A stretch of DNA of 64,000 nucleotides. Origin: Thioalkalivibrio paradoxus ARh 1. Its GTDB lineage: Bacteria; Pseudomonadota; Gammaproteobacteria; Ectothiorhodospirales; Ectothiorhodospiraceae. Location: contig NZ_CP007029.1 of the NCBI RefSeq assembly GCF_000227685.2, forward strand, positions 338,047 to 402,046. Direction: 5' to 3'. Below, piece after piece: positions 2,531 to 61,468 of the stretch. The notes beneath the pieces were generated by a model. It ran no database searches. It was given only the letters and a program-made list of their open reading frames with translations, and had not been told where the DNA came from. Position numbers and translations under genes: made by a program. Numbering within the stretch: position 1 is the first letter of the stretch; each line of letters begins with the position of its first letter.

Positions 2531-5097
2531 GGCGCCTCCCCGATCGGCAACCCGCTGGAAACGCGCGCATCGGCGCATTTCAGGAGCGCTTCGAGCCAGG
2601 CCAGGCCCCAGGGGCCGAAACGGCGCTGCAGGTCGTCGTAGCGGCGTTCGACCTCCATCGCCAGGGCTGCGGCGGCCGCCACCGGCAGTTCCGGGTCCCA
2701 CTGGCGCGGTTCGGCAAACCCGGGGCGGGCATGGCCGTGGTGCGCCGCGATCAGGTGCAGCGTGAGGTCCCGGCGCAATGCGTCGTGTTCGTTGGTCGGC
2801 ACCGGGAACTCCCGGATCGCGTCGGCGAGCGACCCGAACTCGTGGCGGTAGCCACCGAGCAGGGCCGGTCGGAAAGATCCTCGTGCCGCCTTGGCGACAG
2901 GCTCGGAACGGCGATTGCCGGCGGCGCGCTGCCAGATGCGCCGGCCCTTGCCCGCATCGTGCCACGCGCCGGCGTCGTGCAGCGCGGCGACCATCCATTC
3001 CGGCAACCGCAGCGCCTGCCCGATCCGTTCGGCTGCGCAACCCACCGCCGCGTTATGCTCGGGAAGCCGTACCGCGGCGGGTCCGAGCCGGCTGAGGTCG
3101 GTGTCGGCGTCCAGAGCCAGCTCGCTCACCTGCCGACGCGCGTAGACCCACCATCGGGGTTCGGCGTCTTCGTCTTCGAGGTCGTGCAGCGGCAGCTCCC
3201 AGCGTGCGGCGGTGCGCACCCATTCCGGTGGCGTGCCCGGATCGCCTGCGGTGACTTCGAACCGGACGCCGTCATCGTCGTCGGCGAGATCCGCGACCGG
3301 CATTCCGGCGGCGTCGGGATCAAGGAATCCCGCCTCCGACAGCCCGCCGATGCGCGTGGGCAACACGACCGTCGCGTAGCGAAACCGGCGGTAGCCGGTC
3401 GGGTCCGCCGCTTCGGTCACCAGGTCGACATGCACCTGCCCCTGCAGGTCGATCCGGATCAGCGGGAACGGACCCGCACGCTCGGCGAGCGCCGCGATTG
3501 CCCTCGCGGCCTGCGCTGTGGGCAGCTTCAGCACCTCGCGCGGGCGCGGCCGCAGGAAGGTCAGGGCTTCCGCGCAGGCGCTGGCCCCGGCCGCGGTCAG
3601 GAGTTCGACGTCGTGGCGCCAGAGGATCTGGGTCTCGGCCCATTCCGGCTCGTCGGACAGGCCGCGGAGGAAGGGTTCGATGGGCGGCAGGTTCAGTCGA
3701 GCGCCGGTCGCGGCCAGCAGGGTGATGCGTTCGGCTGCGAGCGGGATATGGCGCGGGTCGGGTAGCGACGCCTGGGCCCGCAGTTCCGGACTCAGGGCGA
3801 GCAGGGCCATCGGGTTCAGGTTGCTGTGCCGGCGCAGAATCTCCAGCGTTGCGGCCTGTGCACGCACCGTCGCCTGTTCCCAACCTTCCTTCTTGCTCGC
3901 CTTCGGCTGGATATCCTCCGGGCTGTACACCAGGTGGACGGTTGCAAGGCTGCTCCGTCCGGAGCGATTGACCCGGCCGAGGCGCTGGATCAGCGAATCC
4001 AGCGGTACGAGATCCATCACCAGATGGTCGGCGTCGAGATCGACGCCGACCTCGGCCGCTGCCGTGGCGATCAGCCAGACCGGCGGCAGGGAATCGTCCT
4101 CTGGCCGTGGCTGGGCGAAGCGTCTCCAGAGCTCGGTACGGGTCAGGCGTTCGCGTTCGTGCCCCCGCAGGGTTCCGGTGAGGATCCCGACGCTGCCGGC
4201 ATGCGCCTTCCCGAGCCGCTTCGACAACCGGGAATGCAGCTTCTGCGCCTCCTGGGCCGAACGCACGAACGCGAGAATCGCCCCCTGCTCAAAGCCCGCG
4301 AGCAGCTCGACGATCTTCGGCAACCGCTCCGCGCGAGCCGCAACCTCGTGCCGATGCAGCCGTTTCACTGCCTGCAGACGCAGCCCCAGCACCGGGTGGC
4401 GGGTGTCGGCTTCCGCCAGGCTGCTGGCTGCGCCGCCGCGCGGCGTTGCCGACATCGTCAGGGTAGTGAACCGATGGCCCTCGAGCCCCGGGTTGCTCGC
4501 CTCGATCTGGCGCAGCGTCTGCGCGAACGGTTCGTTCAAATGGGCCTCGTCGAGGATGACCGTGGTGCCGACCCCCAGCAGCCCCGCATGCAGCGAACGG
4601 CGGTTGCGTCCGTCGCCGTAGCCGGAAAAGAGCAGCCGGGAGCCGATCATGTCCACGGTCCCGATCACCACGGTGGGCGCCGAGGGGTCCAGCCGCCATT
4701 GGCCCGTATCGGTCATCCCGCCCCGCAGCGTGCCAATGCGCACGGGCTGCTCCGGGTCCGGGAATGCGGCGAGCGCGCGGAATCGATTGGCCAGTTCGGG
4801 CAGTGCGCAAACTGCTTGGGTCCACTGCGCGACGGCATTGGTGGTCTGGTCGACGATCGCTCGCCGATCGACGATATACACGAGACGTCGCGGCAACGCC
4901 GCGCCGGCAGCGAGGGCCAGCAGGTAGATCAGCACGATGCTCGTCTTCCCGCTCGCGGTGGGAAGCGCTACCCCGCGCGGCAGTCGGCCTGCTATCAGTT
5001 GGTCAAAGAGCCGTTCCTGCCAGGGATACGGTGAAAACCCGCTGATGCGCTGGAACGTGCTGGCAAACTCCAGCACCGGCGGCCGCTCGACATCCAT
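2527..5097 (-). CDS. cas3: CRISPR-associated helicase-nuclease Cas3 (type I-G)
   Basis: An 856-residue Cas3 with the helicase first and the HD nuclease last, the order typical of type I-G. Visible motifs: Walker A (LPTASGKTS, about residue 46), motif II DEAH (TVILDEAHLNEPF), motif III MSATP, motif VI (LIQRLGRVNRSGR), and a C-terminal HD domain with ALHDAGAWHDAGK, GGYRHEFGSL and LIAAHHGHARPGF supplying metal ligands. It unwinds and degrades DNA after Cascade binding. The start is preceded by AAGGGAG. It is the first gene of the operon and its TGA overlaps the csb3 ATG. All key residues that I can check are present, so the protein looks active. Confidence 0.93.
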   Translation of the reverse strand: MDVERPPVLEFASTFQRISGFSPYPWQERLFDQLIAGRLPRGVALPTASGKTSIVLIYLLALAAGAALPRRLVYIVDRRAIVDQTTNAVAQWTQAVCALPELANRFRALAAFPDPEQPVRIGTLRGGMTDTGQWRLDPSAPTVVIGTVDMIGSRLLFSGYGDGRNRRSLHAGLLGVGTTVILDEAHLNEPFAQTLRQIEASNPGLEGHRFTTLTMSATPRGGAASSLAEADTRHPVLGLRLQAVKRLHRHEVAARAERLPKIVELLAGFEQGAILAFVRSAQEAQKLHSRLSKRLGKAHAGSVGILTGTLRGHERERLTRTELWRRFAQPRPEDDSLPPVWLIATAAAEVGVDLDADHLVMDLVPLDSLIQRLGRVNRSGRSSLATVHLVYSPEDIQPKASKKEGWEQATVRAQAATLEILRRHSNLNPMALLALSPELRAQASLPDPRHIPLAAERITLLAATGARLNLPPIEPFLRGLSDEPEWAETQILWRHDVELLTAAGASACAEALTFLRPRPREVLKLPTAQAARAIAALAERAGPFPLIRIDLQGQVHVDLVTEAADPTGYRRFRYATVVLPTRIGGLSEAGFLDPDAAGMPVADLADDDDGVRFEVTAGDPGTPPEWVRTAARWELPLHDLEDEDAEPRWWVYARRQVSELALDADTDLSRLGPAAVRLPEHNAAVGCAAERIGQALRLPEWMVAALHDAGAWHDAGKGRRIWQRAAGNRRSEPVAKAARGSFRPALLGGYRHEFGSLADAIREFPVPTNEHDALRRDLTLHLIAAHHGHARPGFAEPRQWDPELPVAAAAALAMEVERRYDDLQRRFGPWGLAWLEALLKCADARVSSGLPIGEAP

Positions 5098-49401: not shown

Positions 49402-50217
49402 ATGCTTGAACTCCTGGCACTACCCTTCTCCTCGGGCATCCTGATTACCGCCGTCCTCGCCCTCGCCGGTGCGGGTCTGTTCCTGCACGGTTCGGTCTGG
49501 CAGGCGCTCGCAGTGAGCCAGTGGGCCGCTGCGGGTGGCGTACTGGCATCGGTATTCGCGCTGCCGGTACTTCCGGTGGCTATTGCCGTCGCCGGTGCCG
49601 CGATGGCCGTGATCAGCCGAACGCGCGATGCCGAACGTCTGCCACTGGCCGCGTTCCTCGCCGGACTCGCGCTGGTAACACTGCTGGCTGCCAACTTCGC
49701 TCAGGCCAGTCTGGCCGCGGCATCGTGGGCCGAAGGCCAGTTGTACTTCGTCGGGCCGACCGAATTCCGCGCGATCGCCGTCGCCGCACTGGCCAGCCTG
49801 ATATTTTGGCCGGTCCTGCTGAAGCTCTGGCTGCACCACCAGTTGTTTCCCGACGTTCCCGCCCATTCCGGTCCGGCACGCTGGCACCGTGTGCTCGGGG
49901 CCGCCTGGCTGCTCGGCGCGATCGTCCTCGGCAGCATGGCGCTCGGCGTTCCGGCGGCGCTGGCGACGCTGCTGTTGCCCGCATGGGGCGCCAGTTTCCT
50001 CGCGCGCGACGCCAGGGGCCTGCTCGGCTGGTCACTCGGCCTTGCTCTCGCGGGGTTTCTGCTCGCGTGGAGCGCGAGCCTTGCGCTCGATCAACCGTTC
50101 GCGCCGGTGCTGGTACTCGTGCACCTCGTCCTCGCGCTGCTCGCCCACGGACTCACCGCAGGCGCACGGAGCCGGCATTCTCCAACCGCCTCGACGAGCC
50201 GAAAGGCCTCGCGCTGA
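49402..50217 (+). CDS. znuB: Zinc ABC transporter permease (ZnuB type)
   Basis: A 271-residue membrane protein with about eight hydrophobic segments, starting LELLALPFSSGILITAVLALAGAGLFLHG and containing ALAVSQWAAAGGVLASVFALP, the family's early motif for cluster ABC-3 permeases. It begins 3 bases after the znuC stop. The last 20 residues (GARSRHSPTASTSRKASR) are hydrophilic and Ser/Arg-rich, unlike the rest, and end at the 348-bp direct repeat, so the natural C-terminus may have been replaced by junction sequence. Confidence 0.85.
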   Translation: MLELLALPFSSGILITAVLALAGAGLFLHGSVWQALAVSQWAAAGGVLASVFALPVLPVAIAVAGAAMAVISRTRDAERLPLAAFLAGLALVTLLAANFAQASLAAASWAEGQLYFVGPTEFRAIAVAALASLIFWPVLLKLWLHHQLFPDVPAHSGPARWHRVLGAAWLLGAIVLGSMALGVPAALATLLLPAWGASFLARDARGLLGWSLGLALAGFLLAWSASLALDQPFAPVLVLVHLVLALLAHGLTAGARSRHSPTASTSRKASR

Positions 50218-50231
50218 CGGTTCCACCAAAG

Positions 50232-50494
50232 AGGTGCGACTCACCACTGATGTACTGCCGTGCCGGAGCCCGCAGGCGATAGCCATCGAACTCAGCCAAT
50301 TGCCGGCTGATCCAGCGGGCGCGTTTCCGCACACGCTCGGCGATCACAGATGGTGAACAACCCATCGGGGCACACACCAGCACGCGGCTGTCCGGATGAA
50401 CTTCGATGGACAGAGTCTTTCGGGATTCCAGGAAACACACCTCGTAGCGGATGGTGTCGCGACCATACGTCAAGCTCCCGACCATGTGCTTCAT
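50232..50494 (-). pseudogene. Truncated copy of the YgjP-like metallohydrolase gene
   Basis: Reads MKHMVGSLTYGRDTIRYEVC onward, the same as the first 87 codons of the intact gene at 61383, then leaves homology after GESHL at 50232 and runs into unrelated codons (FGGTVSARPFG...). The HExxH active site is missing. A fragment of the preceding hsdR 3' end (about 90 bases, 50491-50579) is attached to it. Confidence 0.8.
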
Positions 50495-50579
50495 CCCGCG
50501 ATGCGGTGGCGGGCCAACTGCATCGTCTTGTCGATGATCCCGTGCATCTCGTCGGTCGAGAGCGCGATACCCCGCGCGC
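50232..50579. repeat. 348-bp direct repeat, left copy (partner at 61121-61468)
   Basis: This segment is almost identical to 61121-61468 in the same orientation; I see about a dozen substitutions. It contains the last codons of an hsdR gene and the beginning of the YgjP-like metallohydrolase gene. The two copies flank the SIR2-Argonaute island and are about 10.9 kb apart. Confidence 0.9.
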
Positions 50580-50764: not shown

Positions 50765-53071
50765 TCAGTCGGTGTGGAGAATGTCGCACCGTACCTCGAA
50801 CCGCTTCCTTTCATTCTCCTGCGGCAGAAAGCTTGCCTGAATCGGCGGGGGCACAGGAATGAAGATACGGTTTTTCATTACGATGGTGCATGTCTCGAAC
50901 GAGCCCCCACCCGAGATATCGCTAATCAGGTTTTGCGTTTGCAAATCGTAGTAGAGCCCAAAATCGCCGGAATGGTGCTCGAATATGAACAGCGCTTTCT
51001 GGCCTCCCCAGACAACCGAAGTGCTGTGAGGCTGTAAGAAAAAGTCACCCTTCTCTTCTTGGATGCGGCTCGTTATGGCGAGAAAGCAGCGATAGCCCTT
51101 GAGTGGAGGCTCACCGTCCTCGATGGTCAGCAGCTTCTTGTCCGTGTTCATATCCAGCCGCTGAATCGGGGGCAGCGCGCCATGCTGTGGTCCGTCAAGA
51201 TGCTCCGTCGCCGCCGCATTGTTGATGACATCCGGAACAACGTCGCGCACGGCTCCAGCCGCGGATCGGTCGAGAACCTGATAGCTTCGCTGGGCTACCC
51301 TGGTGGAGCGCTCTGTCGCCTGTTGGAATGTCAGTTTTCCCCCGAGATAGTCGGTCCATAGAGACGTCAGGCTTTCCAGATCGTTCGTCTCGTACTCGAA
51401 AACCTCGCGGGTCCGATGAATGGATTTGAGAAATGCCTCCGCGCCTTGGCGGGTGGCGCTTGGCACAAGGTCGGAAACCCGTGGGAAAACCATGTTTCGC
51501 ACGAAATCCTTGGCCATGTGGCCGAACGCACTGTACTCCCTGTCGTATAACTCCAGTAGCAGGCGGACGGTTGTTCCCTGAGGATCAAGGAATAGCTCGA
51601 TCGGCGGCTCTTGACTGGTGACAAGGACGGGCAGGCCGTGCGAGATCGTGCCATAACGGACCTGTGCTTCGAGAAAATAATCACCCGATAAGATTGATCC
51701 AACCCTGAAGGCGAGCGCCTTCTGGGCAATGCTGATCTCACTCTCGGGCGATATTACCAAAACCTTCGGATCATCGGACAGCTCCTCGATCTTACAAAAG
51801 TGTCGCAAATAGCTGATCTCGCAGTCGCGGCGTGGCGAGACCTTTGTCAACAAAATGATCGGCTTGTCCTCCGATGCGTGCTTGACGGTCGCGCTGTCCG
51901 TACCGGAATAGACGAGCACCGGCGACTTCTCCGAGCGCGCGCGGACTTCGCTAAGCGAGACGCTGTCGCCGGGCTCAATACGGACCCTAAGATGGCCGCA
52001 CAAGTCGTACCGGCGCTTCCTTGCCGCCCACGCAACGAAGAATGAGTTGGCGTTGCTTTCCGGGCGGTTTGCAAGCTGCAGAGATATGAACTCGTCTACG
52101 TGCGTAAGGAGGCTTTGGAGAAGCTGCAGACTCTCGGTGGTAAGCGCTTCGCGCCCGGCCGTCGGCTGCAAGAAGAGGAAATCCGCAACCCCTCCGAGAC
52201 GATACGCCGAAGCAACGCTCGCCGTTGCGAGACCAAAACCGCTTCGGAACGTGCGCAGGCTGCCTTCTCCCTGCCGGAGCACCATCCGCCCCGGAAGCCT
52301 CTGGAAGCCCGATTCGATGTTTTGCAAGTCGATCCGAACCTCGCCACTCAGAGCACCGGTGAGTTCGACGTTTGCCTTAAAACCGCCTCCTAGATCGACG
52401 CCGTTCTGCTCCCAGGTCCATGTGGCTTTCAGGCTGGGAACGGACTCTTGGATAAGCTGCCCGCTCACATTCCTCCCGTTAATCTCCACCTGGATGGGGA
52501 GGTATGCAACAAACTGTCCTATGTAGGTTTCCGCTTCCGCGACATCGATCAGCTTATCTGGCTGCATTATCGCGGTGACCGTGGTGCCGGGGCTTCCCGT
52601 TGCGGGAAGCGTATCGAACGAGATGCAGTCCTCGGTCACGGAGAGCGTTGAGCGCGCCGCCTTGCACAGCGTCCGCTCCGCTGTGCGGCCGCTCTCAGTC
52701 TCCACCGTCAGTTCCTCGGCCAAGCCGAAGTTCGCCATAGCGCCGATGCCGAAGGTCCCCACAACCCCGGCCGCGCGAGCCTCAGGCGTATTCTTGCTAC
52801 TGGACCCCGCGCGCCAGAAATGTTGACGCAAATCCTCCCGCGACATGCCAATGCCATTATCGGACACCACGACGCGTCTGGGCTCGATGATCACGTTAAT
52901 GCAAGGCGTGAACGCCGGGGCCAGATGCCTGCGGAGCAAAAGCGCATCGAAGGAATTTTGTACGTTCTCACGCAACAGGGCGAAGGGCGTCGGGTAAATC
53001 TGAGCCGCGAGAACTTCGATCATGCGGCTGATCTCTACGGCAAATGGAATTTTCTCTGACGCTTCGCTCAT
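50765..53071 (-). CDS. HSP90-like GHKL ATPase of the SIR2-Argonaute island
   Basis: A 768-residue protein with a Bergerat-fold ATPase at its N-terminus: N box FALLRENVQNSFDALLLR (E35, N36/N39), G1 box VVVSDNGIGMSRED (D71), lid and G2 box GVVGTFGIGAMANFGLAEEL (about 103-120), and GTTVTAIMQ. The arrangement is that of HSP90/HtpG ATPase domains, with a middle domain-like region to about 350, but the rest does not resemble the HSP90 client-binding end and is unassigned. Its ATG overlaps the phosphoesterase stop in ATGA, so it is the last gene of the operon. Codon composition is visibly less GC-rich than in the flanking zinc genes. Confidence 0.8.
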   Translation of the reverse strand: MSEASEKIPFAVEISRMIEVLAAQIYPTPFALLRENVQNSFDALLLRRHLAPAFTPCINVIIEPRRVVVSDNGIGMSREDLRQHFWRAGSSSKNTPEARAAGVVGTFGIGAMANFGLAEELTVETESGRTAERTLCKAARSTLSVTEDCISFDTLPATGSPGTTVTAIMQPDKLIDVAEAETYIGQFVAYLPIQVEINGRNVSGQLIQESVPSLKATWTWEQNGVDLGGGFKANVELTGALSGEVRIDLQNIESGFQRLPGRMVLRQGEGSLRTFRSGFGLATASVASAYRLGGVADFLFLQPTAGREALTTESLQLLQSLLTHVDEFISLQLANRPESNANSFFVAWAARKRRYDLCGHLRVRIEPGDSVSLSEVRARSEKSPVLVYSGTDSATVKHASEDKPIILLTKVSPRRDCEISYLRHFCKIEELSDDPKVLVISPESEISIAQKALAFRVGSILSGDYFLEAQVRYGTISHGLPVLVTSQEPPIELFLDPQGTTVRLLLELYDREYSAFGHMAKDFVRNMVFPRVSDLVPSATRQGAEAFLKSIHRTREVFEYETNDLESLTSLWTDYLGGKLTFQQATERSTRVAQRSYQVLDRSAAGAVRDVVPDVINNAAATEHLDGPQHGALPPIQRLDMNTDKKLLTIEDGEPPLKGYRCFLAITSRIQEEKGDFFLQPHSTSVVWGGQKALFIFEHHSGDFGLYYDLQTQNLISDISGGGSFETCTIVMKNRIFIPVPPPIQASFLPQENERKRFEVRCDILHTD

Positions 53072-54543
53072 TTCTTCATAGCCTTCTGTGCTTTGATCCG
53101 CCTGCGCAACTCCGAAGCCATCGCCTCCGGGAATTGTAGATGAGCCGCAAACCGGTCCAGGGCATCTGCCGCACTCTCCTGGTCGCCTGATCGGTCAAAA
53201 GCCTCAACACGCTGTATCAGCTCCTGAATGCTCGCGGGTGGGTCGGTGACCTTGATTATGACGCCCCAGTCCTGCGCATCCGAAGCGGCAGTTAAGAGAA
53301 GCTCTCGCTGATAGCTGCCCGTTGGAAGGGGCATGTCTTTTAGAAGATCTATCGCCCGTGGCGGATCGCCAGTCTTTGCCGCCGCCTCGGCTTTCTCTAT
53401 CGCCTGCCGGGTACGCGCTGCATCGGCATCGACACTGACCCCAGCGGCGTTGTTCGGCCGCTTCCAGTCAAGATCGGCGAAGCTTGTGCCGCCAAACTCC
53501 ATCAGATGGCCTCGCGAAAATAAGTTCGCGACAGTCATGGCGCGCACATGGATGCGCGCACTTTGGAAATCTGGAGCAATTTCGATGACGTTGTACTGAC
53601 GATGAACTCCCGTGGGTAGCTCGTATGCCCCGGCGCAGAGGGAACCAGCGCTAACGACCGCCATACGTTCGCGGTCAGGAAGCCATACCTGGTGCGGCGT
53701 GATCTGCGCCTTGTGCTGGTGGCCGTAAAGCCCGAGACGGAACTCCCTGCCGATCATTCCCCGGACGATGTCCACGTCCATGTAATCCGTACGGTAAGGC
53801 GGGCCTTCGATGCTGTGATGCCAGACAGCGATCCGAAGGTTGAACGGCATTCCTATATCGTTGAGTTCGAGATGGCTCCGGGCAACGACTTCCTTCCGGA
53901 TCAGTCCGTGGAAAGCGAAGCAATCATTGCCGTGACAGGAATTGAAGGCTGCAAGCCCTATCCGACCGTCGCAAAGGCTAAACAGATTGGCGTCAGCATT
54001 CGGCATGACCTTGAGCAGACCGGGAACGCCCGCATAGAACCTCTCGCAGAACGTCCAGAACGCCTCTAGCCGCCGGGCATACAAAGCGGGATCAGCGATG
54101 CGGTACAGCGTTAACGTTTTCCAGTCCCAGCGGTACTTGGAATCCTCCGCGTAAATAAACGCAGCAAGGTTTGACGGAAAGTCCTTCCGCTCGACCGGCT
54201 CAAGCGCAGCGAACGCGGTATTCCAGTCGATGTCATGGTTGCCGGGAATGAGGATCAGCCTTGAGCGGTCGCCGTTCAAAAATCGGCGTACCAGTTCGTC
54301 CAGAAATTCTTCCGCCGTAGAATACTGCCGGGCGAGTTCGGCTTCATAGTCGGCAGTATTGAGCGGAACGCCCTGAATGAGGTCGCCGCTAACGACTACG
54401 GCTTCCGGGACAGGGACAGCCGGATCCTCGTGGATGTAGCGATCACGGTCGCCGACAAGTGCTGAGATAAGCTCATCATTCGTGATCGGATCACGAGGCG
54501 ACCGATGAAGATCAGATATGTGAAGTATGGAAAAGGGCTTCAT
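53068..54543 (-). CDS. Calcineurin-like phosphoesterase with helical C-terminus
   Basis: A 491-residue metallophosphoesterase with all five metal motifs: D11-L-H13, SGD54, GNHD (101-104), WHH (241-243) and GHQH (274-277). The catalytic part ends near residue 340. The C-terminal 130 residues are helical with repeated small amphipathic units (ARTRQAIEKAEAAAKTGDPPRAIDLLKDM; AFDRSGDQESAADALDRFAAHLQ), like degenerate TPR repeats. It may hydrolyse nucleic acid or a nucleotide signal. The start lies 11 bases after the Argonaute stop and the stop overlaps the ATPase start. This active-looking enzyme could be an effector or a shut-off factor for the SIR2-Argonaute protein. Confidence 0.85.
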   Translation of the reverse strand: MKPFSILHISDLHRSPRDPITNDELISALVGDRDRYIHEDPAVPVPEAVVVSGDLIQGVPLNTADYEAELARQYSTAEEFLDELVRRFLNGDRSRLILIPGNHDIDWNTAFAALEPVERKDFPSNLAAFIYAEDSKYRWDWKTLTLYRIADPALYARRLEAFWTFCERFYAGVPGLLKVMPNADANLFSLCDGRIGLAAFNSCHGNDCFAFHGLIRKEVVARSHLELNDIGMPFNLRIAVWHHSIEGPPYRTDYMDVDIVRGMIGREFRLGLYGHQHKAQITPHQVWLPDRERMAVVSAGSLCAGAYELPTGVHRQYNVIEIAPDFQSARIHVRAMTVANLFSRGHLMEFGGTSFADLDWKRPNNAAGVSVDADAARTRQAIEKAEAAAKTGDPPRAIDLLKDMPLPTGSYQRELLLTAASDAQDWGVIIKVTDPPASIQELIQRVEAFDRSGDQESAADALDRFAAHLQFPEAMASELRRRIKAQKAMKK

Positions 54544-54554
54544 GCGAGCTTCGC

Positions 54555-57500
54555 CTAAATAAATAAACGGTAGTCGTATGAGGAAGCCCCGAAGCGCTGA
54601 AGCAGGGAGCCGATGCGGGCAATTTCGCCGGAGGACTGAAGGGTCGCCGGAAATTTGGTATAGAGGCCGAACGTGTTCCAGTTCATTTTGGAAAGGCCGA
54701 GTATCTCCCCCGCTAACTGGTCGAGCGCCGTTGCCCCGGCGTGCCGCCGCAGCGTGAGCGGCGCGGGAATCCGCCTCTTGCCTTGAAAATACTTGAGGCT
54801 CGGATTAACGGCGGCGGTCGCGCCGTGGACCCACAGCAAGGCCGTGAAGTCGTCTAGCTTCATGACGGTGCCGCGTCGCACCGGGTAATTGTCTTCGTCG
54901 ATGGTGCCATCACGGCCCGGCATCGACGCGACGTAGCGCAGGGCGTGATCTTCGACAATTTCTAGCATGTCGATGGCGGCGACGCCGCCGAGGCCGTCGC
55001 GCAAGCCTTCGCGCTCGTCCCTCAAGAACGGCGTGCGCTTGTGTAGCACGACGCGCCGGGGGAGCTTCATGCGCGTATCGAAGAAGAGCTGCCGGATTGT
55101 CTCTCCGGCGCGCCGCGCATCATCCCGCGACATGAAGGGGTTCTTGCCCCGCATGATCGGGTTCTCGACCTTGCTGAGCCGGTATTGCAGGCCCTCGCCG
55201 CGCGCGCTGTAGATGTGGCTGCAACCCAGGACGACGTGATTGCCCTTTGCGGCGTTGCGGTCGATGCTGAAGCCAAGCCCGACATAGGCCGCGTCTTCGT
55301 CAAGGCCGCTCAGGACCCAGGGGGTGCGTATCCCTTTGACATAGAGGGCAAGCGAGAGCCACCACCACACCCGGCACTGCTGGGTATCCGAGAGCGTATC
55401 TTCGGTCAGGAACTGCGTCGCGACCCCGCGCTGGACAGCGTAGGCCTTCACGAAATCATGCACGTCGAAGCGCTCGTGCTCGTCCCGGTAGCCGCGCAGA
55501 TGATCCCAGCGGCGCGGGAAGAAAGCGAGCACGACATGCGGTGCATAGGAGGAACGCAGCGCCTCAATAGCGCCGGTGATATGCTGCGCGACGGACAGCG
55601 GCCCCTGCCCCGTGTGCCCGCCGGTGTTGGACGGCTCGGCGCAGAGAGCCCAGCCCAGCGCGCCGGGCTCGGGAATCTCGATGGGCAGGCCGTAGGCCTG
55701 CTGGAACCCCGGAAAGTCAACAAGGTAATCGCGCTCTGAATCGGCGGGACGATGCCCCTGATTGGCCTTCTGAAGGTAGCCGCGCACCAGCCGGGCTTCG
55801 GAGCGCGGACAGATGACGCCGACGCGCAGCGACGGAGCAAGCCCCTTGAGCGTGAGCGGGTAATCAAAAGGACGGTTCGCCGCGAGGCCGCGCACGGGAT
55901 GCGTGTCGGTGTTCGTCCCTGTTCCCTGCTTGTCGCAGAACAGAAGCGTCGGCTCCGCCAGCTGAAGCCCCTTGTACTTGATGAGGGATTGCAGGTTCTG
56001 CGTGATGTTGGCTGAAGGGCCGCCGTGCGGCAGGCCGATCTGCGCGAAGACCGGCGCACGTCGGGCGCGAAACTTGAAGCTCGATCCCGCGTCAGTCGGG
56101 AACTCGAAAGAGCACGGCTTGTCTTTGGGAAAAAGTAAGCGGCGCCATTTATTCATGGCAGTGTTGAACGGTTTGTTGTGCTGGTAGCCGAGAATTCTAA
56201 GCTTCACGGGTCCGGCAACCTCATAGGGCACTTCCGCTCCGCTCTGGTCTAGAACCCTGATTGACGGCTTGAGGACGACGTACTGCGTACCGCCGACGCG
56301 GCGCAGGAAAATGATAACGGATTCATGCGCATGACACTGAACATTGTCCTGCCGCACCCTCTTGAGCGGCGCTTTCAGCCAAAGCTCGGACTGGCCGTCC
56401 GTCTCGACCCCGGCGGCATTCGCCATAGAGCGCACGAGAGCCTCGCGCATCAGACCGACAATTGCGCCGTCCTCGTAGCGCAGCTCGTAGGGCGTGACCG
56501 GCGTTCTCTCTACCGGCCCCTTGATGTTTTCGCCGAAGCAATCCTTGATATCGTCCACCGTGCCTAGAGCGAGGATCTTCCCCTTGAAGGGCACGGCGAC
56601 GACCGGGCGCGCGCCGGTCTGCTCCCGTACCCATGACCAGACTTTCTCTGACGGCCAAGCCTTGAGGTCGAACGAAAGCACCTCCGCCGGGCAATCGATC
56701 TCGAAGGCGTTACTCTTGATGAGGGTATTCGCGCGATGCTCCGCCACCTGAAACGGCTGGCGAGCGAGAAGATCGTTGGGGGCAAGCGCGGCAACGTCCT
56801 TGCGCGCGGCCTCGCGCCGCTCACCCTCAAGGCAATAGAGAGCAAGCCGGGTCATCAAGTCATCGAAGCCGAGCGTGGGAACATAAAAGACTTGCCTGCC
56901 GTGCGCTCTCGCGTGAGCGATCAGGCGGGCCACCGGCTCGGGAACCTCGCCGTCGCCGAAGCCGCACCAGTACAGTGCGCCCGTACCCGGCTCTGCGCAG
57001 GCAGCCTGAAGCGCCTCCATGATGGAGTGGTCGCGCCCGCTGTAGCCACAGACGATAAGCGTCCTCTGTCGCAGCTCGTCGATCAGCGCGGCCCGCAAGG
57101 CTGCTTCCTGCCGCTGTAGTTCGTCTGGTGTGTTCTTGAGGTCATCGTAGCGGTAGTCGCCATGCAGCGAGACGCACAGCAACTCGCCTGCGTTCGCGGG
57201 ACGGGCAGCGCGGCCCTGAGTGTCGATCCCGACCTCGAACGGCGTGAGACTGAAATTCGCGGCGGCGCGTGCGGGCAGCCCGTCGAAATTTGTGGACCAG
57301 ACCGAGCGGATCAGGTCGGCCTTGGCGAGATGGCAAAGAAGCCGATAGCCGATATGCGGCTGCGCCCCGCGCACCTTCTCCTGAAAGAAGGCGCGGCGGT
57401 CGTCGGGAATCGGAAAACAGGCGCGGATATAGAAGCCGTATTCATTGTCCGCGCCTTCCTGCGGATAGGTGCCTTGCGTGTCCAGCCACTGCTGGATGTG

Positions 57501-57749
57501 CCGCTGCACGCCGGGCAGCGATAGCTCCGTGAACTGCTCTTCAAGGCCCGGATTGTTGGTGAGGAAGAGGTCGCGTTTCCATTCCCAGATACATGCCTGC
57601 GCGGACGGGATGCCTGAGCTGACCGATGCTCCCGCCCCTAGGAAGAGCGCATGCTGTGCCGCCCGCCTGACGCCGATTGACCGGACGAACGCATCGAGCG
57701 AGAGGCTCAGCTCGTCCGTCTCCAGCGCTTTGGCGGGGGCAGAAACCAT
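54555..57749 (-). CDS. SIR2-APAZ-PIWI fusion, short prokaryotic Argonaute (SPARSA-like)
   Basis: A 1064-residue single-chain protein. N-terminal SIR2 domain (about 1-290): ALFLGAGASVSSGIPSA (GAGxS at 38-42), STNFDG (153-156), SLHGD (195-198) and CGYSGRD (235-240), residues used by NADases. A middle region (about 300-570) fits the APAZ domain, and the C-terminal MID-PIWI-like part (about 590-1064) includes GWALCAEPSNTGG, YAPHVVLAFFPRRWDHLRGY, ending YDYRLFI. The catalytic DEDX tetrad is not visible, as expected in short pAgos. Known relatives bind guide RNA, detect foreign DNA and deplete NAD. It has a GGTGGGG ribosome site and lies 2 bases after a 53-residue gene. Confidence 0.88.
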   Translation of the reverse strand: MVSAPAKALETDELSLSLDAFVRSIGVRRAAQHALFLGAGASVSSGIPSAQACIWEWKRDLFLTNNPGLEEQFTELSLPGVQRHIQQWLDTQGTYPQEGADNEYGFYIRACFPIPDDRRAFFQEKVRGAQPHIGYRLLCHLAKADLIRSVWSTNFDGLPARAAANFSLTPFEVGIDTQGRAARPANAGELLCVSLHGDYRYDDLKNTPDELQRQEAALRAALIDELRQRTLIVCGYSGRDHSIMEALQAACAEPGTGALYWCGFGDGEVPEPVARLIAHARAHGRQVFYVPTLGFDDLMTRLALYCLEGERREAARKDVAALAPNDLLARQPFQVAEHRANTLIKSNAFEIDCPAEVLSFDLKAWPSEKVWSWVREQTGARPVVAVPFKGKILALGTVDDIKDCFGENIKGPVERTPVTPYELRYEDGAIVGLMREALVRSMANAAGVETDGQSELWLKAPLKRVRQDNVQCHAHESVIIFLRRVGGTQYVVLKPSIRVLDQSGAEVPYEVAGPVKLRILGYQHNKPFNTAMNKWRRLLFPKDKPCSFEFPTDAGSSFKFRARRAPVFAQIGLPHGGPSANITQNLQSLIKYKGLQLAEPTLLFCDKQGTGTNTDTHPVRGLAANRPFDYPLTLKGLAPSLRVGVICPRSEARLVRGYLQKANQGHRPADSERDYLVDFPGFQQAYGLPIEIPEPGALGWALCAEPSNTGGHTGQGPLSVAQHITGAIEALRSSYAPHVVLAFFPRRWDHLRGYRDEHERFDVHDFVKAYAVQRGVATQFLTEDTLSDTQQCRVWWWLSLALYVKGIRTPWVLSGLDEDAAYVGLGFSIDRNAAKGNHVVLGCSHIYSARGEGLQYRLSKVENPIMRGKNPFMSRDDARRAGETIRQLFFDTRMKLPRRVVLHKRTPFLRDEREGLRDGLGGVAAIDMLEIVEDHALRYVASMPGRDGTIDEDNYPVRRGTVMKLDDFTALLWVHGATAAVNPSLKYFQGKRRIPAPLTLRRHAGATALDQLAGEILGLSKMNWNTFGLYTKFPATLQSSGEIARIGSLLQRFGASSYDYRLFI

Positions 57750-59111: not shown

Positions 59112-59132
59112 CGCGCCAAAACAAGTGGCGCG
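59112..59132. promoter_or_regulatory. First inverted half-site pair upstream of the Fic gene
   Basis: CGCGCCA and TGGCGCG are separated by 7 bases. The motif is built from the same TGGCGCG half-site that occurs in the larger palindrome 36 bases to the right, so a second operator for the same regulator is likely. Confidence 0.4.
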
Positions 59133-59167
59133 CAAATAGACATATCGCGTCATTACGAGGTATTTTA

Positions 59168-59194
59168 TTGGCGCGAATACCCTATTCGCGCCAA
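59168..59194. promoter_or_regulatory. 27-bp palindromic operator upstream of the Fic gene
   Basis: TTGGCGCGAATA and TATTCGCGCCAA are exact reverse complements around CCC, ending 14 bases before the ATG at 59209. A winged-helix domain at the N-terminus of the Fic-fold protein is the obvious candidate binder, hence autoregulation. Confidence 0.65.
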
Positions 59195-59208
59195 CACTCA
59201 GGTGAGTC

Positions 59209-60612
59209 ATGCCGAAAAAACTTTCTGAGGATTTGGTTGCGCGGATAGTGGAAGAGATCGCCCGACATCCGGAGGGGGTCGGCATCGACGATCTGCATGC
59301 CGCTCTGGCCGACGTTGTGAGCCGCCGCACCTTGCAGCGCCGCCTGGCCTCGCTGGTTGAACAGCAACGTCTGCACACACTGGGCGAAGGCCGCGCGCTC
59401 AAGTACCGACTCGCTCCAATAACGGGAACGATGGCGGCCCAGGAAGAAGGGTCGGATGTGGTGGCGGTCAGAATCGAGGTCTATGTTCCCACAACCACCG
59501 AAGGCGAAGAGATCAGGGACTACGTCCGCCAACCGATCCAGCACCGCACCCCGGTGGGCTACGAACGCGGATTGCTGGAGGCGTATCGGCCCAACAAGAC
59601 CCGCTATCTGGCGCCGGAACTCCTCACACACCTGCACCAGATCGGCCGTTCGCCCGACGGCGAGCGCCCGGCAGGCACTTATGCGCGCGACATCCTGGGG
59701 CGACTGCTGATCGACCTGTCCTGGGCTTCGAGCCGTCTCGAGGGCAACACCTATTCCCGGCTCGATACGCAAAACCTGCTCGAGCGCGGCCAGGTTGCGG
59801 AAGGCAAGGACCGCCGTGAAGCGCAGATGATCATCAACCACAAGGCGGCCATCGAACTGCTGGTGGAGCAGGCCGAGGACATCGGTTTCAACACCTTCAC
59901 GTTCTACAACCTGCATGCGCTGCTGTCGGAGAACCTGCTCGCCGATCCCAGTGAGAGCGGGCGGCTCCGGAGCCGGATCGTCGAGGTCAGCGGCACGGTG
60001 TTCCACCCGCTGGCCATCCCGCAACAGATCGAAACCTATTTCCGCATGATCCTGGCAAAGGCCGATGCCATCGACGACCCTTTCGAGCAGACTTTTTTCA
60101 TCATGGTCCACATCCCGTACCTGCAACCCTTCGTGGACGTGAACAAGCGGGTCTCCCGGTTGGGCGCCAACATTCCGCTCATCCGGCACAACCTCTGCCC
60201 CTTGTCTTTCATCGATGTACCGGAACGGGCTTATGTCGAAGGCACGCTCGGCGTCTACGAGATGCAGCGGGTGGAGCTGCTGCGCGACGTGTTCCTGTGG
60301 GCCTACGAGCGCTCCTGCCGGCGTTACATGGTGATCCGCGATACCACAGCCGAGCCGGATCCCGTACGTCTGCGCCACCGCGAGGCGCTGATCGCGATCG
60401 TGGCCGAAATCGTGCGCGGGCAGCAGCAGCCCGGCGAGGCAGCGGTACGCAGAGTAGCAGCATCCCTGGTCCCAGCAGAGGACCTGGACGCGGTCGTGAT
60501 CTTGGCGATGGACGATCTGCGCAACCTGCACGAGGGGAACGTGACCCGGTATCGTCTGCGATTGTCCGAGTACCGGGCCTGGCAGCCAATGCAACAGCCC
60601 AAAGAAGGATGA
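59209..60612 (+). CDS. Fic-fold protein with N-terminal winged helix; catalytic His replaced by Gln
   Basis: A 467-residue protein: winged-helix DNA-binding domain (about 1-70, VARIVEEIARHPEGVGIDDLHAALADVVSRRTLQRRLASLVEQQRL), a linker with the inhibitory-type motif SSRLEGNTYS (about 179-186), and a Fic domain whose active loop reads HIPYLQPFVDVNKR (residues 301-314). Compared with canonical HPFxDGNGR, the loop has Q306 where the catalytic histidine stands, and D310 and NKR remain. Such QPF-NKR loops form a known subgroup whose AMP-transfer activity is doubtful. It may act as a repressor that senses a ligand or nucleotide. ATG 59209 follows GGTGAG. It is convergent with the metallohydrolase gene of the restriction locus. 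Confidence 0.78.
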   Translation: MPKKLSEDLVARIVEEIARHPEGVGIDDLHAALADVVSRRTLQRRLASLVEQQRLHTLGEGRALKYRLAPITGTMAAQEEGSDVVAVRIEVYVPTTTEGEEIRDYVRQPIQHRTPVGYERGLLEAYRPNKTRYLAPELLTHLHQIGRSPDGERPAGTYARDILGRLLIDLSWASSRLEGNTYSRLDTQNLLERGQVAEGKDRREAQMIINHKAAIELLVEQAEDIGFNTFTFYNLHALLSENLLADPSESGRLRSRIVEVSGTVFHPLAIPQQIETYFRMILAKADAIDDPFEQTFFIMVHIPYLQPFVDVNKRVSRLGANIPLIRHNLCPLSFIDVPERAYVEGTLGVYEMQRVELLRDVFLWAYERSCRRYMVIRDTTAEPDPVRLRHREALIAIVAEIVRGQQQPGEAAVRRVAASLVPAEDLDAVVILAMDDLRNLHEGNVTRYRLRLSEYRAWQPMQQPKEG

Positions 60613-60672: not shown

Positions 60673-61383
60673 TCAAAGCAACGCGGTTTCCAGCCTCCGC
60701 TTGCGTTGTTCCCAGTCGGGCATCATCTGCTCCAGCAACGTGTAGAACTGCGCGTCATGATCGCGATGCTGGATGTGACACAGCTCATGGGTGATCACGT
60801 ACTCGATACACGGGCGCGGTGCGCGAATCAGTTTGACATTCAAGGTCATGGTGCCGGCCCGTGACAGACTACCCCAGCGGGACTGCATGGTCCGTACAAT
60901 CAGCCGCGGACGCTGGGCACTCTTGAAGCGGCGCAGACAGCCTTCCAGCACCTCGCCGAAGACCACCTGGGCGCGGTCGAGATACCAGCGGTGCAGCACC
61001 GCCTTGGCGCGCTCCGGATCCGGTTCGCCAGGCAGGCTGACCAGCAACTGGCCCCGTGCGCATTTCACACCAGCTTTATCGCCCGCCAGGAGCTTCAGCC
61101 GGTACTGCCGGCCAAGGTACAGGTGCGACTCGCCACTGATGTATTGCCGTGCCGGAGTCCGCGGGCGATAGCCATCGAACTCAGCCAATTGCCGGCTGAT
61201 CCAGCGGGCGCGTTTCCGCACCCGCTCGGCGATCACAGATGGTGAACAACCCATCGGGGCACGCACCAGCACGCGGCTGTCCGGATGAACTTCGATGGAC
61301 AGAGTCTTTCGGGATTCCAGGAAACACACCTCATAGCGGATGGTGTCGCGACCATACGTCAAGCTTCCGACCATGTGCTTCAT
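60673..61383 (-). CDS. YgjP/SprT-like M48 family metal-dependent hydrolase
   Basis: A 236-residue protein with MKHMVGSLTYGRDTIRYEVC at the N-terminus and the catalytic zinc motif ITHELCHIQHRDHDAQFYTLLEQMMP (HExxH plus distant His) typical of the YgjP/DUF45 family. Members are commonly encoded next to type I restriction genes. Its ATG overlaps the hsdR stop (ATGA), so it is co-translated. The first 87 codons are duplicated at 50494. Function is unknown but may relate to proteolysis or control of the restriction enzyme. Confidence 0.85.
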   Translation of the reverse strand: MKHMVGSLTYGRDTIRYEVCFLESRKTLSIEVHPDSRVLVRAPMGCSPSVIAERVRKRARWISRQLAEFDGYRPRTPARQYISGESHLYLGRQYRLKLLAGDKAGVKCARGQLLVSLPGEPDPERAKAVLHRWYLDRAQVVFGEVLEGCLRRFKSAQRPRLIVRTMQSRWGSLSRAGTMTLNVKLIRAPRPCIEYVITHELCHIQHRDHDAQFYTLLEQMMPDWEQRKRRLETALL

Positions 61384-61468
61384 CCCGCGATGCGGTGGCG
61401 GGCCAACTGCATCGTCTTGTCGATGATCCCGTCCATCTCGTCGGTCGAGAGCGCGATACCCCGCGCGC
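61121..61468. repeat. 348-bp direct repeat, right copy (partner at 50232-50579)
   Basis: Right-hand member of the repeat described at 50232. Here it spans the intact junction of hsdR and the metallohydrolase gene, so this copy is the complete, probably original one. Confidence 0.9.

Follow-up and report, generated by a model that had tools for sequence, protein, structure and literature searches.

The locus and its surroundings

The stretch of DNA analysed here, termed the window, comprises 64,000 nt of the genome of Thioalkalivibrio paradoxus ARh 1 (GCF_000227685.2, NZ_CP007029.1, positions 338,047–402,046). It contains an open reading frame of 467 aa in which a predicted winged helix precedes a Fic domain (the wHTH-Fic gene), and the DNA in front of this gene carries a series of inverted half-sites. 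The features discussed below are collected in Table 1.

The gene is part of a 10.9 kb island that is bracketed by a 300-nt direct repeat, the two copies of which are identical at 292 of 300 positions. Apart from the Fic gene, the island holds genes for an HSP90-like ATPase, a phosphoesterase, and a SIR2-pAgo fusion. The phosphoesterase and ATPase genes perhaps form one operon with the pAgo gene. Just to the right of the window (L218:1158–6070, genome G000) lies a restriction operon with the order hsdM, rhuM, hsdS, fic, hsdR, and ygjP, whose Fic protein of 289 aa has an intact HPFDDGNGR motif. The genome as a whole gives five Fic-domain matches, presumably including the wHTH-Fic gene.

Table 1. 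Features of the window, with positions counted from its first nucleotide
Feature	Position	Strand	Remarks
Inverted repeat with perfect 12-nt arms	4026..4051		loop of at most 8 nt
300-nt direct repeat, first copy	50232..50531		hsdR 3' end and ygjP 5' end
Calcineurin-like phosphoesterase gene, then HSP90-like ATPase gene	50765..54543	-	behind the pAgo gene; ends overlapping
SIR2-pAgo fusion gene	54555..57749		1064 aa; PADLOC pAgo, 1356.8 bits; divergent from the Fic gene
Half-site 1	59112..59118	-	exact TGGCGCG core (top strand CGCGCCA); 97 nt before ATG
Half-site 2	59126..59132	+	exact TGGCGCG core; 83 nt before ATG
Additional half-site, one mismatch	59129..59135	-	overlaps half-site 2
Promoter-like TAGACA-18-TATTTT	59137..59166	+	between two operator blocks; 9/12 matches, weak
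Half-site 3	59146..59152	-	TGACGCG, one mismatch; 63 nt before ATG
Perfect palindrome 12+3+12, putative main operator	59168..59194	.	half-sites 4 and 5; shortly downstream of the predicted -10
wHTH-Fic gene	59209..60612	+	ORF, 467 aa
Predicted winged helix	59209..59418	+	aa 1-70; recognition helix aa 39-51
Inhibitory-helix motif S-S-R-L-E-G	59728..59745	+	aa 174-179; class II position
Fic loop PYLQPFVDVNKRVSR	60115..60159	+	aa 303-317; Gln306 replaces His
300-nt direct repeat, second copy	61121..61420		hsdR 3' end and ygjP 5' end

A predicted three-part protein with a glutamine in the active site

The Fic domain is recognised by the Pfam profile PF02661 over aa 232–322 (E 3.5e-8, 34.6 bits against a cut-off of 24), and an NCBIfam scan gave no match at E 0.01. 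An AlphaFold2 model built from 77 aligned sequences (mean pLDDT 89.2, pTM 0.66) divides the protein into a winged helix (aa 1–70), a Fic core (approximately aa 97–380), and a helical C-terminal domain (aa 385–462), with a linker of low confidence at aa 72–89. The core matches the FICD fold (Z 25.1, rmsd 2.5 Å over 233 aa). No alternative fold for the Fic part occurs among the matches listed by VIA-align, where absence excludes nothing. By both profile and fold, the protein belongs to the Fic/Fido family, as an earlier note on this DNA had proposed.

The same note described a fusion with a winged helix, and this holds as a confident prediction. The Pfam match is weak (20.8 bits, under the cut-off of 27), and the AlphaFold2 model places helices at aa 9–18, 26–33, and 39–51, with a wing at 55–58/65–68. 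When modelled in isolation (pLDDT 82.9), the domain has operator-bound TtgV as its best match among solved structures (Z 11.5, rmsd 1.3 Å over 65 aa), and several further winged-helix proteins equal or nearly equal this match. A DNA-binding domain is thus predicted to share a chain with the Fic core.

In class II Fic proteins, a clamp is formed between an inhibitory Glu and the final Arg of the Fic motif. The class II motif, (S/T)xxxE(G/N) in a position N-terminal to the Fic motif (PMC9755527), is present here as SSRLEG and is invariant in the family. The Fic motif itself, YLQPFVDVNKRVSR, departs from the canonical AMPylating motif HxFx[DE]GN[GK]R: in an alignment with FICD homologues, Gln306 stands on the column of the catalytic His. 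Asp310, Asn312, Lys313, Arg314, and Arg317 are retained, and roles for the metal-binding Asp and the phosphate-binding last Arg have been set out in PMC4454073. All 90 parsed family members have Ser174, Glu178, Gly179, Gln306, Phe308, Asp310, Asn312, Arg314, and Arg317, and 89 of them have Lys313. The earlier observation of a Gln at the place of the essential His, with Asp and Asn-Lys-Arg kept, was therefore correct and extends to the whole parsed family, which rules out a one-off mutation or a sequencing error.

Judged by its sequence, the pocket still has its inhibitory Glu, its metal-binding Asp, and the Arg that binds phosphate, and has lost the base. The loss of the catalytic His argues against ordinary AMPylation. 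The Fic core does not have the look of decay, since it is better conserved (mean majority frequency of 0.76 for aa 161–330) than the winged helix, the least conserved part of the protein (0.49 for aa 1–70).

Sampling, descent, and spread of the Gln-type clade

Relatives were drawn from a genome collection, where at least 570 were found and the best 80 of 570 were kept, and from plasmid and phage sequences. Uniformity of Gln in the first set has to be read with an ascertainment bias, as one of the two search patterns includes Gln and the parser required the remaining motif; L032, L039, and L082 were left out of the parsed set. The plasmid and phage tblastn lists (66 records in total, 20 fetched) are free of this bias. 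Plasmids contributed 64 records, 24 of them spanning at least 80% of the protein, and phages gave two partial matches. In this unbiased set, Gln is found in all 12 plasmid homologues (L002–L013) and in the more distant L110–L115. L116 is disrupted, with Gln readable in one frame, and L117, at 25.9% identity, has His.

In a tree of 61 Fic domains, a single branch with support of 100/95 separates 42 Gln rows from 19 His rows; this tree was rooted at its midpoint and made without a Doc sequence, and several of its long branches were flagged. Given the single split, the change from His to Gln looks old and single. A group of short Gln-type Fic proteins (L194–L196, L198, L199, and L201; 215–245 aa) has the motif QFFYD[VG]NKR, and neither the inhibitory motif nor a promoter array was found in this group.

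These observations bear on the possibility that the Gln-type protein is a working enzyme of altered chemistry, which transfers phosphate or another group from an NKR-type, Doc-like pocket and whose winged helix limits its dose. Fixed pocket residues beside a less conserved winged helix speak for such an enzyme, as does the single, well-supported His-to-Gln split, and according to PMC4454073 the clade is not necessarily dead. The general base is nevertheless lost, the toxicity of Campylobacter fetus Fic2 and Fic3 requires His (PMC5651007), and no activity of a Gln-type Fic protein was found in the literature searched. We regard this as a serious candidate that is nonetheless rather unlikely.

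The gene itself is patchily distributed. Among the 29 other genomes of the genus there is no full-length homologue, with partial matches in two (G011 and G015). Five of 58 relatives overall have one, the window's own genome counted. Across the class, 27 of 276 genomes have a match covering at least 400 of 459 positions, a few of these matches containing an internal stop. No DNA match to the gene was found in E. coli. This patchy occurrence fits horizontal movement of the gene.

One of the partial matches is a remnant in the same genus (L107:12–176, G015). An open frame of 62 aa matches the family over its 55 C-terminal residues and adjoins what appears by eye to be a YgjP fragment. The two may descend from an earlier copy of the arrangement in the window that has since decayed.

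A putative operator at the gene's own promoter

Five half-sites of the type TGGCGCG precede the gene on alternating strands (-, +, -, +, -), four of them exact and one with a mismatch. The most prominent element is the palindrome TTGGCGCGAATA-CCC-TATTCGCGCCAA, which contributes half-sites 4 and 5 at 40 and 22 nt before the ATG. The earlier note had placed a 12+12 palindrome 14 nt before the start, and this is exactly what the sequence holds. Two inverted repeats whose perfect 12-nt arms are separated by no more than 8 nt occur in the 64 kb window, against 0.07 expected from 15 random replicates; the other lies far from the gene (Table 1).

The note had also pointed to a second half-site pair upstream. 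The pair exists (half-sites 1 and 2), but a divergent pair of this kind (gap of 4–26) has 10 occurrences in the genome and a reversed control has 13, and since it is not rarer than that control, no weight is placed on it alone. Single half-sites with up to two mismatches are only slightly more frequent in the window than expected (29 compared with 19.8, a number reached by 1 of 100 shuffles).

One promoter-like sequence was found, against a mean of 0.5 per shuffle, which makes it a weak candidate. No RNA family was found at the gathering threshold between positions 50000 and 64000. The gene thus has inverted repeats at its own promoter, as does the autorepressor CccR discussed below.

Half-site arrays across the family

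To describe such arrays in other genomes, copies of a 9-mer with at most one mismatch were counted on both strands of the 150 nt upstream of each gene, the start codons of family members being guessed by script. At least three copies were present in 78 of 86 family promoters, compared with 119 of 567 other genes of the same loci, and at least four copies in 54 of 86 compared with 14 of 567. Among shuffles of the 86 family upstream regions, 75 of 860 reached three copies and 5 of 860 reached four. The remaining 8 of the 86 promoters have fewer than three. The enrichment is also seen in 16 representatives that share less than 60% identity, 14 with at least three copies and 11 with at least four.

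The half-sites of an array tend to lie on the same face of the helix. Spacings between copies on the same strand (202 distances) cluster at 19–21, 31–33, and 40–42 bp, the vector strength being 0.47 at 10.5 bp and highest, 0.485, at 10 bp, whereas arrays of control genes have a vector strength of 0.11 at 10.5 bp (168 distances). The shortest same-strand spacings, at 12–14 bp, are off the helical phase. As the family rows are related, p-values for enrichment and for phasing are not independent.

The array persists while the sequence of the half-site varies between subgroups. Eighty-eight members have at least 120 nt of upstream sequence; in these the core is TGGCGC in 42, TGTCGC in 27, TTGCGC[CG]T in 5, and unassigned in 14. 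No other of the 459 columns separates the two main classes as well as residue 38, which adjoins the recognition helix: it predicts TGGCGC or TGTCGC in 65 of 69 members, with a residue grouping fitted on those same data. Along the Fic-domain tree, operator class changes 9 times and residue 38 changes 5 times; the joint state also changes 9 times, so the changes at residue 38 coincide with changes of class.

The enrichment, the phasing, and the covariation of half-site and recognition helix bear out what the earlier note suggested, a putative DNA-binding Fic protein with matching sites at its own promoter. By sequence comparison, the proposed binding sites and their specificity are well supported. 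The arrays suggest a binding site and are silent on the sign of regulation.

Could the palindromes be terminators, recombination sites, or chance occurrences instead? The divergent pair, taken alone, would allow this, being as common as its reversed control. No terminator-like site was found, however, and arrays in 78 of 86 promoters, in which the sequence changes and the helical phase is kept, make such an origin very improbable.

The gene itself as the probable target

The earlier note suspected a transcription factor proper, with the Fic fold as its ligand sensor and, possibly, restriction or defence genes in the vicinity as its targets. The restriction operon and the SIR2-pAgo gene are indeed close by, and clusters of HsdR-, HsdS-, and HsdM-like proteins occur near family members in 6, 5, and 4 loci, respectively (HsdS and HsdM assigned by eye). 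The distribution of the operator speaks against this role. The note had proposed a search for the palindrome elsewhere in the genome, and the exact convergent operator occurs once in 3.76 Mb, at the wHTH-Fic gene, while its reversed control occurs five times. Half-sites with up to two mismatches and at most 60 bp apart are found in the window only at the promoter and start of this gene. None are found in L218, a 19.9 kb stretch that starts 0.5 kb inside the right end of the window, extends beyond it, and holds hsdM and hsdS.

The other loci of the family give a similar picture. A second half-site cluster is present in 3 of 54 loci with a strong array of their own. Clustering of 813 ORFs of at least 80 aa revealed no conserved neighbour, the most frequent family occurring in 6 loci. 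Likewise, Pfam and PADLOC scans of 137 of the 159 nearest neighbours (those above 900 aa or below 100 aa were dropped) gave no recurring family, with at most 5 of 137 for any of the top 25 families listed. A divergent neighbour lies within 300 nt in 27 of 90 loci and could be co-regulated. Searches for operator patterns across the genome, the window, and its right flank pointed to the gene's own promoter alone. On this ground we rejected neighbour regulation as the principal function, and a transcription factor proper now appears improbable.

Absence of a constant neighbour also bears on two ideas that involve a partner. A two-gene toxin–antitoxin system would have a conserved partner, and there is none among ORFs of at least 80 aa, a size limit that a very small antitoxin could escape. 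Alternatively, the Gln-type protein might be an antagonist that pairs with a His-type Fic protein and holds it inactive, as in the Fic1/Fic2 pair of Campylobacter fetus. Neutralisation of one Fic protein by another has been published (PMC5651007), and the genome offers possible partners among its Fic-domain matches, one of them the intact Fic of the restriction operon next door. Yet a SoFic match (E 1e-10) occurs in only 2 of 137 neighbours, and no Fic partner is constant, which leaves an antagonist with a slimmer chance still than a transcription factor proper.

The best reading of these patterns is a dedicated autorepressor, not a regulator of neighbouring restriction genes. As the sole visible target is the gene itself, the rest of the protein is best understood as the effector.

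Related winged helices and His-type Fic genes

The winged helix and its operator are not confined to Gln-type Fic proteins. Three genomes (L102, L103, and L106) encode, beside a HepT/HEPN gene, an MNT nucleotidyltransferase whose fused winged helix falls in the same family (E 3e-11 to 6e-11); L102, scanned as the sole representative, matched NTP_transf_2 (1.8e-16) and HepT-like (4e-26). Upstream of all three MNT genes is GTGGCGC-N12-GCGCCAC, with the same TGGCGC core as the operator in the window, as a single palindrome without an array. Being near relatives of each other, the three loci count as one case. Their shared TGGCGC core indicates that the operator travels with the winged helix, here in a recognised toxin–antitoxin setting.

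In four proteins (L183, L184, L185, and L187), a winged helix of this kind is combined with a Fic domain that contains His. Inspection by eye shows short half-sites close to the start of these genes, but a count of exact 7-mers reaches three in one of the four, and the best score of L184 and L185 is equalled by 4 of 200 shuffles. Having failed the 7-mer count, these promoters were not counted as arrays.

Eleven further His-type Fic genes of approximately 450 aa (L202–L212) were compared in the same way. At least three exact 7-mers are present in 8 of 11 and at least four in 4 of 11, against 40 and 5 of 567 control genes. These promoters are AT-rich, and dinucleotide shuffles of each promoter were used as a stricter control. 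By this measure, five of the 11 are clear (L202, L209, L210, L211, and L212, with at most 2 of 200 shuffles reaching the 7-mer or 9-mer score), L205 and L207 are borderline, and the remaining four are unsupported. L186, L190, and L200 were excluded for want of a usable gene or upstream region. Of the Fic genes without an evident winged helix, none of 8 on chromosomes and 1 of 4 on plasmids or prophages reached three copies; this count omits L110 and L111, which each reach three and whose N-terminal part is ambiguous.

L209, L210, and L211 hold class II Fic genes that have the His, and the half-site arrays across the promoters of these genes are striking, with sites of the TTGATAGAT type; TTGATAGAT is repeated upstream of the L209 gene. 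The alignment of the L209 protein to CbFic2 of Coxiella covers most of the latter's HTH.

Because some His-containing Fic genes also have arrays, autoregulation does not depend on the loss of His, and a regulatory role does not imply a dead enzyme. Self-regulation appears, from these promoter sequences, to be common to HTH-bearing Fic proteins more widely.

A proposed self-repressing switch

We consider the wHTH-Fic gene to encode, more likely than not, a one-component, self-repressing Fic protein in which the Gln pocket is a switch and the Fic part is the effector. The N-terminal winged helix would bind about five alternating half-sites with a TGGCGCG core that flank and overlap the gene's own promoter. 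Binding would be co-operative, cover approximately -97 to -15, and repress the gene. As the palindrome sits just behind the predicted -10, its occupation would block transcription; repression is suggested by this position and by analogy with CccR. The Gln pocket, with its Glu-Arg clamp, would bind a nucleotide or a modified target as a switch, and not carry out ordinary AMPylation. The response of the pocket would alter the state of the protein, lift repression, and so yield more Fic protein, itself the effector. Such a design may act as a one-gene toxin–antitoxin or defence switch, the resulting unit resembling a single-gene toxin–antitoxin or abortive-defence unit.

Architecture (as a predicted fold), the fixed Gln, phased arrays, switching of specificity, and an exact convergent operator confined, in this genome, to its own promoter are read from the sequence, and from them we infer binding, repression, a ligand, the function of the pocket, and the effector role. 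In its odds, the self-repressing switch overlaps with a working enzyme of altered chemistry because autorepression is common to both, and they differ in the pocket.

A broader and more tentative proposal, somewhat less probable than the working enzyme, concerns the His-less Fic clade as a whole. Each member would be a one-gene switch in which recognition of a nucleotide or an AMPylated target by the pocket, with its fixed Gln, Glu, and Arg, makes the protein bind co-operatively, and in helical phase, to the array at its own promoter. Winged helix and operator code would shuttle among Gln-type Fic proteins, His-type Fic proteins, and MNT antitoxins, with re-targeting at the start of the recognition helix.

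The self-repressing switch would give part of the Gln-for-His clade a testable role. From sequence, its DNA target can be identified in dozens of genomes, and a specificity residue is proposed. Furthermore, the half-site arrays suggested at other HTH-bearing Fic genes mean that Fic dose may be controlled at the level of transcription beyond CccR, the one proven case in the literature searched.

Comparison with known systems

Helix-turn-helix domains fused to Fic were hypothesised to regulate fic by Kinch in 2009 (PMC2686095). The closest experimental parallel is CccR of Yersinia pseudotuberculosis, which binds inverted repeats at its own promoter, as established by footprinting, a reporter, and mutation of the palindrome (PMC9755527, 2022). 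Like the window's protein, for which this is a prediction, CccR combines Fic and a DNA-binding domain in one chain. Its autorepression acts through inverted repeats near its own -35/-10 and is separable from AMPylation (PMC9755527), in likeness to what is proposed for the gene described here. CccR differs in having a C-terminal HTH and an active FIC motif that is required for growth inhibition (PMC9755527), in contrast to the predicted N-terminal winged helix and the Gln of the window's protein. Its operator is one pair of 10-bp repeats, 26 bp apart, instead of an alternating array of half-sites.

The Gln motif was described in silico by Khater and Mohanty in 2015 as clade D2, Qx[FY]x[DE][GV]NKR, of a function yet unidentified at that time (PMC4454073). 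QPFVDVNKR conforms to this motif, with Gln at the catalytic His and an NKR loop. Clade D2 was, however, described as 45 usually single-domain proteins grouped with Doc, and the section of PMC4454073 on D2 does not describe their regulation. The window's protein has three parts and departs from that description in its class II inhibitory motif, last Arg, and fused winged helix.

By sequence and fold, FICD and class II Fic proteins are the closest solved relatives, sharing the inhibitory Glu and the last Arg. FICD has a TPR part. The protein studied here has a winged helix in its place, lacks the catalytic His, and has NKR for NGR. The PADLOC profiles PDC-S04 and SoFic match 77 and 75 of 77 members, respectively (E 1e-5), in partial matches to the Fic part. 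Sofic differs in that it is a toxin that AMPylates, carries a C-terminal domain, and has a small antitoxin encoded downstream (PMC12249575). CbFic2 is a DNA-binding Fic protein whose fold matches the Fic part at Z 20.9; it differs in its C-terminal HTH and its activity, and the passages of PMC10628234 on it use random DNA and report no specific operator. The HEPN/MNT loci share the winged-helix family and have a TGGCGC-core palindrome before the MNT gene beside HepT, as the wHTH-Fic gene has at its own start, but they form a two-gene module in which the fused domain is a nucleotidyltransferase and not Fic.

In the literature searched, with subscription papers mostly outside its scope, no report of arrays at Gln-type Fic genes or of a test of the clade was found, nor one that describes the array code, its phasing, or its switching, or that connects the Gln clade with a winged helix. 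Fic-HTH fusions (2009), the Gln motif (2015), and CccR (2022) were thus known, and what is new here is the regulation: the arrays, their phasing, the switching of specificity, and the union of the Gln clade with a winged helix.
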